Assembly: GCF_010634855.1 (NCBI RefSeq)
Contig: NZ_MWLQ01000018.1
Location: 62,001-126,000 of the forward strand
Source of the DNA: Microbacterium sp. B35-30
GTDB taxonomy: Bacteria; Actinomycetota; Actinomycetes; Actinomycetales; Microbacteriaceae
Reading direction: 5' to 3'
DNA length: 64,000 nt
In this document: positions 48,257 to 50,470 of the stretch, piece by piece
Layout: each line of letters opens with the position of its first letter
How positions within the stretch are numbered: the first letter of the stretch is position 1
Notes under the pieces: model-generated
What the model was told of the DNA's origin: nothing
Database searches by the model: none
Seen by the model: the letters and a program-made list of their open reading frames with translations, nothing else
Translations under genes and position numbers: made by a program

Positions 48257-48407
48257 CCCGCCCTCCCCGCCGATCGTCCGTCGTGCGGATCATCGCACCA
48301 ACCGGCGACACCACAACTCGTGGGGCAGGTCAAGCCCCAAGACGGTCGCGGGCGCAGCGGATATCCCTGTTCCAGAGACAAACCGCCACTGCTTGAGGTG
48401 AGCAGCC

Positions 48408-48551
48408 ATGATCACATTCGAATCCGCTCTCCGCTCCATCGGAGCCACCCTGAGGAAGCTCTTCGACCGCCGGCGCCCGCGGCGAACCACCTGGAAGGCG
48501 ACGCTGGCCGACGTCCGCCGCGCTGAAGATCATCACTTCCCGATCACCTGA
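48408..48551 (+). CDS. possible small basic protein (47 aa)
   Basis: A 47-codon frame reads MITFESALRSIGATLRKLFD and continues with an RRRPRR tract. GAGGTGAG sits eight bases before the ATG. The protein would be a basic amphipathic peptide. I know no family, and a frame this short could be chance, but composition and the ribosome site favour a real gene. Confidence 0.45.
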   Translation: MITFESALRSIGATLRKLFDRRRPRRTTWKATLADVRRAEDHHFPIT

Positions 48552-48642
48552 ATACCCCCGCGGGGCGCCGCCCGGACGCCGCGCGGTGCGTCAGTCGTCG
48601 GTCGGGTCGGTGATCACGCCGGGGCGGATGCCTCACCCGCCG

Positions 48643-49935
48643 TCAGTGGACCGGGCAGCGTGACGGCGTTCCGCTCGCCCGCACGCGCGCTCCCGACTTC
48701 GGCATCGTGGGAAGCCGGCGGCGGTTCACGGTGAGGCCGGAGTCCAGAACGGTCAGCCCCGGGTCGCTCAGCACGGCGATCGCCGTCGCGAGGCCGGAGA
48801 TCGCGATCTTCTCGCCCGGGCAGCGGTGGCCGGTCGCCACGTCGCCGCCGCCGTGCGGGATGAAGGCTGTCAGCGCCTCATAGTCTTCGACGCCGCGAAA
48901 GCGCTCGGGGTCGAAAGTGGCCGCGTTCTCCCATGAACGCGCGTCTGTGTCGGTGCCGAGGATGTCGAGCATCACGCGCCCGCCGGCGGAGAGGTGCTGC
49001 CCGTCGAGTTCGACATCCTGGGTCGCCCATCCGGGGAGCATCGGCACGAAGGGTGCGGTGCGCCGGATCTCCTGGGCGAACGTGATCGCGAGCGGACCTC
49101 CCACCAGGGTCTTCCGCTCCGACGTCTCGGCGGAGATGCGCTCCCGCCATTCGGGCCGGTCGTGCAGCTCCTTCGCGGCGAAGGCGACGAAGCGTGCGAC
49201 GGCGATCGTCGGGCGGATCGTGTTCTGAAGCTCGACTCCGGCGACCTGCGCGGGCAGCAGTTCGCCGGCGGGATCGCGGTGCCAGGCCCAGGAATGAAGG
49301 GCCGTGCCCTCCCGGGCGGCGAGATCACCGGCGCGCACCGCGTCGATGAGGCGCCGCGCATGCCGGTCCGACCAGATTCGATTGCCGACCGCCGCGAGGT
49401 AGGCGGGTGAGTAGGGCGCACCGAAGCCGTCGACGATCTGCGCCAGGCGCGCCGACCAGCGGGTCTTCGCCGCGGGCGTGCCCGGCAGTCCGGCCCACGT
49501 CATGATCGCCCGACCCAGCGCGCCGACGGCCGCGTCGTAGGCCGTGCGGTCGCCGTCGTCCAGCCATGCGTCGAGTTCGTGACGCCACTCCCGCTCGAGC
49601 AGCGGCTGCAGGCGTTCGACCTCGGCATCCTCGTAGGCGACGTCCACGAACGTCGCCTTCCGGTGGCGGTGCTCGTCGCCGTCGAGACTGTGCACCGCAC
49701 CGTGTCCGAACAGCGTCTCCTGCACGATCGCGGGCATCGCACCGTGGCGGGCGATCCGCGTCTCGTCGTAGAACAGCTCCACCGCCGCCGTGCCTCGCAC
49801 GAGGAGGGCGTCCCGGCCCAGCAATCGCAGGGGGGCGGATCTCGCGCCGTCGCGGACGCGCCGCCAGACGCGCTCGCCGAAGTCGTAGCCGTGGACGAGG
49901 ACGGAGAGCGACTCGTCGGCGAGCGGACGCCTCAT
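48643..49935 (-). CDS. cytochrome P450, CYP152 fatty-acid peroxygenase type
   Basis: This 430-residue P450 is of the CYP152 group, which uses H2O2 to hydroxylate or decarboxylate fatty acids. The heme thiolate is Cys372 in HGGGDVATGHRCPGE, and the substrate-carboxylate-binding Arg241-Pro242 is in NTIRPTIAVARF. At the key position, His82 (FGHGAVHSLDG) corresponds to His85 of OleT rather than Gln85 of P450-BSbeta. The usual acid-alcohol pair of the I-helix is absent, as in the family. The upstream 103-residue gene ends 13 bases before its start. Confidence 0.9.
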   Translation of the reverse strand: MRRPLADESLSVLVHGYDFGERVWRRVRDGARSAPLRLLGRDALLVRGTAAVELFYDETRIARHGAMPAIVQETLFGHGAVHSLDGDEHRHRKATFVDVAYEDAEVERLQPLLEREWRHELDAWLDDGDRTAYDAAVGALGRAIMTWAGLPGTPAAKTRWSARLAQIVDGFGAPYSPAYLAAVGNRIWSDRHARRLIDAVRAGDLAAREGTALHSWAWHRDPAGELLPAQVAGVELQNTIRPTIAVARFVAFAAKELHDRPEWRERISAETSERKTLVGGPLAITFAQEIRRTAPFVPMLPGWATQDVELDGQHLSAGGRVMLDILGTDTDARSWENAATFDPERFRGVEDYEALTAFIPHGGGDVATGHRCPGEKIAISGLATAIAVLSDPGLTVLDSGLTVNRRRLPTMPKSGARVRASGTPSRCPVH

Positions 49936-49948
49936 CGCGGCGGCCGCA

Positions 49949-50260
49949 TCAGCGGCGCTCGGGCTTCATCGGCGGACGATGCGGGATCGGTATCGGCCGG
50001 GTGGTGCCCGAGCTGCGGCGACCGTGGCGGATCAGGTCGCGCAGCACCGCGTCGGCGGTGCCGTAGCGGGTGGGCAGACCGACCGGGTGCAGCCAGAGCA
50101 CGTCGACGCCTTCCAGTGGGGCCTGGCTGACGCAGGCGACGAGGCTTCTGGCGTCGGTCGTGGGGAGATGCGCGTCGCGGATGATCCACGTCGACTGATC
50201 CACGCGCTGCAGGTCGTACCGTCGTCCTGTCGGACGAGCCTGGGGTTCGAGCATCACCAT
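49949..50260 (-). CDS. hypothetical protein (103 aa) upstream of the P450 gene
   Basis: This small soluble protein begins LEPQARPTGRRYDLQRVDQS and contains VDVLWLHPVGLPTRYG, then a Pro/Arg-rich tail. I recall similar proteins in Microbacteriaceae but know no function. ATG codons at 50260 and 50254 are both possible starts; GAGAGGTGAG lies upstream. Its stop is 13 bases before the P450 start, so co-expression is likely. Confidence 0.7.
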   Translation of the reverse strand: MVMLEPQARPTGRRYDLQRVDQSTWIIRDAHLPTTDARSLVACVSQAPLEGVDVLWLHPVGLPTRYGTADAVLRDLIRHGRRSSGTTRPIPIPHRPPMKPERR

Positions 50261-50470
50261 CGTTCGCTCACCTCTCTAGTCCGGTGGCCGACCACGGCGA
50301 TGCGGATATCGCTGTTCTCATTTCGGTGCCTCCACGCTGATGCAGCGAGTCGATTCTCACCGAGGACGAGCCAGGCGCTATCGGGGTTGACAAACGACGC
50401 CCAGGGCCTACGGAACCGGACCGGAGTCTCCCGCGGGCGACGATCGCCCCGCTGTCCGCACCGCGGTGGG

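Follow-up and report, generated by a model that had tools for sequence, protein, structure and literature searches.

The P450 encoded on the minus strand at positions 48643-49935 of the window (the whole stretch of 64,000 nucleotides analysed here) is read as a stand-alone CYP152 peroxygenase of the actinobacterial decarboxylase clade, which includes enzymes from Rothia, Corynebacterium lipophiloflavum, and Kocuria, and as a predicted alkene former; we give this reading a probability of about 0.75. By analogy, the window P450 is expected to be an H2O2-driven enzyme that gives terminal alkenes together with hydroxy acids, and its gene is described as a CYP152 peroxygenase gene for a predicted fatty acid decarboxylase/hydroxylase.

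The gene has an ATG start, encodes 430 aa, and is intact and under purifying selection, with a dN/dS of 0.15-0.17 against four close relatives. The protein matches Pfam p450 at 42.0 bits (cut-off 22.8). Its best NCBIfam model is the CYP152 peroxygenase CypC (NF053744), with 296 bits against a curated cut-off of 600 for the equivalog, and the window P450 is a CYP152 relative that lies outside the CypC equivalog. Matches were found to 29 PDB sequences, the top 24 of which are CYP152 entries, and the AlphaFold model (built with 45 sequences) has a pLDDT of 92.8 and a pTM of 0.91. Chance as the source of the open reading frame and of the residue matches is ruled out by the phmmer E-value of 4.2e-99 against 8vwk, the pLDDT of the model, and the dN/dS. 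In its own genome the protein has one match, and Pfam p450 matches there number two in all; the nearest named relatives are in Microbacterium yannicii (88%) and M. psychrotolerans (86%).

The active-site residues agree with this family. The sequence-only reading had paired His82, Phe76, and Arg241 with His85, Phe79, and Arg245 of OleT, and the pairing is borne out by a MAFFT alignment with 4l40, 1izo, and the locus L097, in which F76, H82, R241, P242, and C372 correspond to F79, H85, R245, P246, and C365 of OleT. The codons lie on the minus strand at 49708-49710 (Phe76), 49690-49692 (His82), 49213-49215 (Arg241, equivalent to the carboxylate-binding Arg245), and 48820-48822 (Cys372, the heme thiolate ligand), and the motif FGHGAVHSLDG begins at residue 76. 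A heme Cys loop is present, and Arg-Pro replaces the usual acid-alcohol pair; membership of CYP152, also proposed from the letters alone, is supported by Arg241-Pro242, Cys372, and the Pfam and PDB matches. The same columns read F/Q/R/P/C in P450 BSbeta (1izo) and L/Q/R/P/C in L097, a P450 on a Sphingomonas paucimobilis plasmid that is of SPalpha type, its identity with SPalpha itself being unconfirmed. Enzymes of the SPalpha type are alpha-hydroxylases.

Conservation of these residues was followed in a close set at 60% identity or more, comprising 61 rows but 59 different genes (L199 and L200 duplicate L147 and L148) and mixing named loci with further genomes, some possibly of the same species. 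Phe76, His82, and Val168 occur in all 60 readable rows, and Arg241 in 61 of 61. Val168 stands at the position of OleT Ile170, where the three actinobacterial decarboxylase structures have Leu and BSbeta has Val; the OleTJE-like Ile is thus absent from the window P450 and from every readable close row. Even decarboxylases differ from one another at residue 79 and in the F-G loop; the C. lipophiloflavum protein (L070), for example, has Val at 79. In a group of Paractinoplanes-type proteins (L078, L080, L081, L083, L084, L085, and L091), one residue fewer is found right before the position-85 His (e.g., LFGKG-VHT), and a shifted active-site loop is possible there.

The placement of the protein was examined in a maximum-likelihood tree of 82 rows, from which 13 near-identical rows, all with His, had been dropped and the short or split loci L016, L020, and L095 excluded. 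The window P450 falls in an actinobacterial set of 55 rows with support of 100/100, the program having flagged long branches on the side of the other 27 rows and where the two sides join. All 55 rows have His at position 85. The set includes three crystallised proteins (L058, L066, and L070) and excludes OleTJE, BSbeta, and the SPalpha-type protein; the window P450 therefore groups with solved decarboxylases, apart from BSbeta and the SPalpha-type protein, and carries the equivalents of His85 and Arg245. The other 27 rows, which comprise OleTJE, BSbeta, the SPalpha-type protein, Rhizobiaceae, Micromonosporaceae, and a few others, have His in 14 cases and Gln in 13. In the free tree OleTJE stands beside BSbeta (82/88), and its constrained placement with the 55-row set was not rejected by the AU test (p 0.277), so that a single origin of this His in OleTJE and in the 55 rows is neither shown nor rejected.

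Structural comparison points the same way. The top three PDB sequence matches are 8vwk, 8d8p, and 8w1j, titled as fatty acid decarboxylases of Kocuria marina, Rothia nasimurium, and C. lipophiloflavum, respectively, and fragments of their chains (200, 201, and 176 residues) are identical to L058, L066, and L070, the record of L066 being named Rothia nasisuis. The model of the window P450 gives Z-scores of 54.1-55.6 against these three structures and 45.3-48.8 against other CYP152 structures. Sequence identity is 39-46% to solved or tested members of the clade, 37% to the SPalpha-type protein, 32% to BSbeta, and 30% to OleTJE, and support from the clade is tempered because 39-46% is only modestly above the value for a protein of the alpha-hydroxylase kind. 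The family, clade, and residues of the window P450 are direct observations from these comparisons.

Several named enzymes can be set beside the window P450. The closest tested or solved kin are the Kocuria enzymes (CYP152T1 of K. rhizophila and the K. marina protein of 8vwk), which have 44-46% identity, belong to the 55-row set, and share its residues, but differ in having Leu at 170 and in lacking the C-terminal Cys-Pro (CP) tail described below. OleTPRN of Rothia (8d8p) is also in the set, with Phe/His/Arg at 79/85/245 and a fold Z-score of 55.6; its identity is 40%, and it too has Leu at 170, where the window P450 has Val, and no CP tail. OleTPCL of C. lipophiloflavum (8w1j and 8w1k), a further member of the set, keeps the His and Arg but is 39% identical, with Val at 79 and Leu at 170. 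In excerpts of PMC13049924, OleTPRN and OleTPCL are treated as decarboxylases, and the F-G loop of OleTPRN is described as shorter than that of OleTJE. The stretch corresponding to OleT residues 165-191 measures 23 residues in OleTPRN, 25 in the window P450, 24 in BSbeta, and 27 in OleTJE. OleTJE (CYP152L1, Jeotgalicoccus) shares His85, Phe79, Arg245, and Pro246 with the window P450, but lies outside the 55-row set and has a longer F-G stretch and Ile170. BSbeta (CYP152A1) has the CYP152 fold, Phe, Arg, Pro, and Val at 170 in common with the window P450, but has Gln at 85 and is likewise outside the set.

With regard to the histidine, its value as an alkene indicator is modest, and weak when it is used alone. 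As a rare marker it was rejected: His is found in 69 and Gln in 13 of the 82 rows, with at least four changes on the tree, in a sample that was collected mainly by searching with window-protein patterns and is weighted towards relatives of that protein rather than a census. Published variants show His85 to be neither required nor enough for alkene formation, since OleTJE H85Q is still dominated by alkenes, and BSbeta Q85H and CYP-Aa162 Q85H/V170I are still mainly hydroxylases. In Table 3 of PMC5377825, alkene yields from C10-C20 acids were 65, 79, 81, 22, 36, and 11% for OleTJE H85Q and 51, 80, 72, 27, 40, and 14% for the wild type. Decarboxylation relative to hydroxylation stood at 3.32 in OleTJE and at 0.19 in wild-type BSbeta, and the Q85H variant of BSbeta reached 0.30 (Rude et al., as given in excerpts of PMC5377825). 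It was also reported, in excerpts of PMC5588734, that His85 and Ile170 form a pair proposed to steer decarboxylation and that hydroxylase activity remains dominant in CYP-Aa162 Q85H/V170I. The alkene-forming activity suggested from the His alone is therefore retained as an expectation supported by kinship, while the step from His85 by itself is insufficient. Kinship is stronger evidence for alkene formation than the single histidine, and alkene formation by the window P450 is likely on that basis. Caution over strong OleT-like selectivity is called for because Val168 replaces Ile170 of OleT, and the alkene selectivity may be below that of OleTJE.

It is considerably less probable that the window P450 is mainly a fatty acid alpha/beta-hydroxylase that, like BSbeta, forms alkene only to a minor extent. 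Such an enzyme would accord with Val168, which matches the BSbeta residue, with the 37% identity to the SPalpha-type protein, and with the His variants that remain hydroxylation-dominant (excerpts of PMC5377825 and PMC5588734); BSbeta itself gives about 15% alkene, according to PMC5818669. What argues against it is that the window P450 groups with the three structures titled as decarboxylases, with BSbeta and the SPalpha-type protein outside. Formation of 1-pentadecene from palmitic acid was reported for CYP152 enzymes of K. rhizophila, C. efficiens, M. populi, and B. subtilis (excerpts of PMC5818669 and PMC6167049). A K. rhizophila row (L039) is inside the 55-row set, and C. efficiens is not in the sampled set; this reaction is not special to the actinobacterial clade, as the B. 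subtilis and M. populi enzymes are also credited with it.

For the window P450 as a peroxygenase that forms alkenes, a mechanism can be carried over from characterised relatives. Arg241 would hold the carboxylate of the fatty acid close to the heme, and H2O2 would substitute for O2 and redox partners. Compound I would then abstract a hydrogen from the beta-carbon, after which the substrate would either lose CO2 to yield the (n-1) terminal alkene or undergo rebound to yield a hydroxy acid. His82, beside Phe76, would help to place substrate and water, without alone deciding the outcome. From these relatives we infer the catalysis, an alkene as a major product, and the physiological role of the window P450; no assay of it or of any Microbacterium CYP152 was found in the searched literature, outside which most subscription papers lie.

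Within Microbacterium, a protein search matched the window P450 in 58 of 149 genomes. The genus also has a distant CYP152 type at 31-36% identity, with Gln at both 76 and 82 in all six genes counted (L015, L018, and L195-L198), a count outside which lie weak further matches in the genomes G075, G110, G128, and G171; one genus thus holds both the His and the Gln type of CYP152. Split or fragmentary CYP152 copies were seen in relatives (L016/L020 in G051, L095, G106:C2:61972-63254, and G138:C7:1358898-1359110) and represent either decay or sequencing error.

A conserved operon around the P450 was considered and rejected, for clustering of open reading frames revealed no neighbour common to most of 23 loci, which consisted of 15 stretches of 9-16 kb (one being the window's own and two lying around distant paralogues) and eight loci with 4 kb flanks. 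With the P450 and shadow reading frames set aside, the largest neighbour families reached five of the 23 loci, among the 46 families listed in order of how many loci they occur in. One observation in this neighbourhood is a zinc-type alcohol dehydrogenase (Pfam) encoded close to the P450, and on its strand, in five of the 23 loci (L130, L134, L135, and L137 of Microbacterium and L028 of Nigerium), an association that spans two bacterial families; the enzyme might act on hydroxylated products. An amino acid permease family occurs in four of the 23 loci. In the window, the P450 has neither of them as its neighbour.

That the true substrate is another carboxylic acid rather than a free long-chain fatty acid, with alkene as a side activity, seems very improbable. 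The patchy occurrence of the gene in the genus (the 58 of 149 genomes above) and the lack of a pathway-indicating neighbour common to most loci would fit such a substrate, but the fold and the Arg241-Pro242 pair match CYP152 enzymes, and many CYP152 crystal structures hold fatty acids by their titles.

The protein ends in a CPVH motif after a short linker (48646-48657, minus strand), which is kept in most of the Microbacterium, Agrococcus, and Pseudoclavibacter orthologues examined. CP[FVI](A)H was found no more than nine residues from the C-terminus in 54 of the 61 close rows (52 of 59 distinct genes), at the very end in 31 of these 54; the rows without it are L022 (RRPIH), L158 (CPFS), and L188, L189, L190, L191, and L192. 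The linker after SGxxV is variable in sequence and mostly about eight residues long, ranging by eye from five (L012) to 15 (L026), the longest scripted lengths being inflated by an earlier pattern match. In a wider set of 95 rows the motif is C-terminal in 21, one of which is Arthrobacter L040, and N-terminal in four; of the 21 Microbacterium, Agrococcus, and Pseudoclavibacter rows, 20 carry it at the C-terminus. The N-terminal CP-like motif is seen in Brachybacterium (L029), Tessaracoccus (L030 and L034), and Propioniciclava (L031). The final ten residues of the AlphaFold model have a mean pLDDT of 63, in line with a loose tail.

The CP tail was also tried as a genome-wide tag and rejected, as its count is at chance level: C-P-x-H-stop occurs twice in the window's own genome, once in the P450, and three times in the reversed control. 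The other occurrence is not the end of any listed open reading frame of at least 80 aa. In 59 genomes of the genus, C-P-F-H-stop was found ten times against 12 in the reversed control, at chance level by count alone, and eight of the ten are, by coordinates, ends of orthologues of the window P450. From 30 Pfam p450 loci, 20 reading frames were recovered (some of the ten missed are CYP152 copies); none of the 20 has the C-terminal form, and in seven (L239, L240, L241, L244, L252, L255, and L257) the part presumed to be N-terminal contains CP with F, V, or A as the next residue. The window's own genome has a second P450, not among the 20 recovered, with MATCPFGF near its likely start, and CPF or CPV occurs near the presumed N-terminus of unrelated P450s of the same order (L145 (G000 C30), L240, L241, L244, L252, and L257).

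Heme regulatory motifs of the Cys-Pro kind are known, and a comparable stretch occurs at the N-terminus of E. coli KatG. A literature search for CPFH as a whole word returned matches unrelated by title, and among the matches listed for heme regulatory motifs there was no P450 peroxygenase by title. We advance only tentatively, and with more doubt than belief, that the Microbacteriaceae tail Cys-Pro-[F/V/I]-His might bind heme or sense the peroxide or thiol state, so that the supply of heme or oxidant would govern how the enzyme is loaded, switched, or degraded.

A small gene of 103 aa (49949-50260, minus strand) lies upstream, 13 bases before the P450 start, and the sequence-only reading had suggested that it may be functionally linked. 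This link proved unsupported, with adjacency confined to the window and its four closest relatives (L021, L022, G072, and G075) and the genes elsewhere apart or one of them missing. No Pfam or NCBIfam match was found for the small gene. Its homologues, at 29-47% identity, were detected in 24 of 58 genomes. Every one of these belongs to the same genus, some have no P450, and in other P450-bearing genomes the homologues are located away from the P450. Within the genomes covered by the search, the small gene is a scattered family confined to this genus, and it is not considered part of the system. It was rejected as a partner of the P450 for its lack of a family, its scatter, and its restricted adjacency.

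The pair is flanked in the window (48257-50470) by a 57-aa reading frame and DNA polymerase IV. In G012 (L263), a genome without a P450 match, only about 98 bases separate these two flanking genes, which apparently makes it an empty site for the pair. In G028, polymerase IV is about 2.5 kb away with neither gene present, and no polymerase IV was found in the stretch in G019 or G017. A functional unit of the P450 and the small gene has some appeal from the 13-base gap and common strand, from the position that the pair takes in the window and its four relatives alike, between the 57-aa reading frame and DNA polymerase IV, and from the empty site in G012, by which both genes may have been gained or lost together, but such a unit is highly unlikely given that 92 of 95 P450-match loci, distant CYP152 types included, lack the small gene within flanks of up to 4 kb (some ended by contig edges) and that its homologues are scattered, some in genomes without the P450. 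The pair is a local arrangement.

The conserved terminal CP motif raises a separate question on the assembly or control of such heme enzymes. If the window P450 decarboxylates, its natural Val at the 170 position, which is thought to matter, would make it easier to tell apart what His85 and residue 170 each contribute. The branch formed by Microbacterium, Agrococcus, and Pseudoclavibacter appears to be without a published assay, as far as the literature searches show, and, if decarboxylating, would add a well-populated branch to the tested P450 alkene makers.
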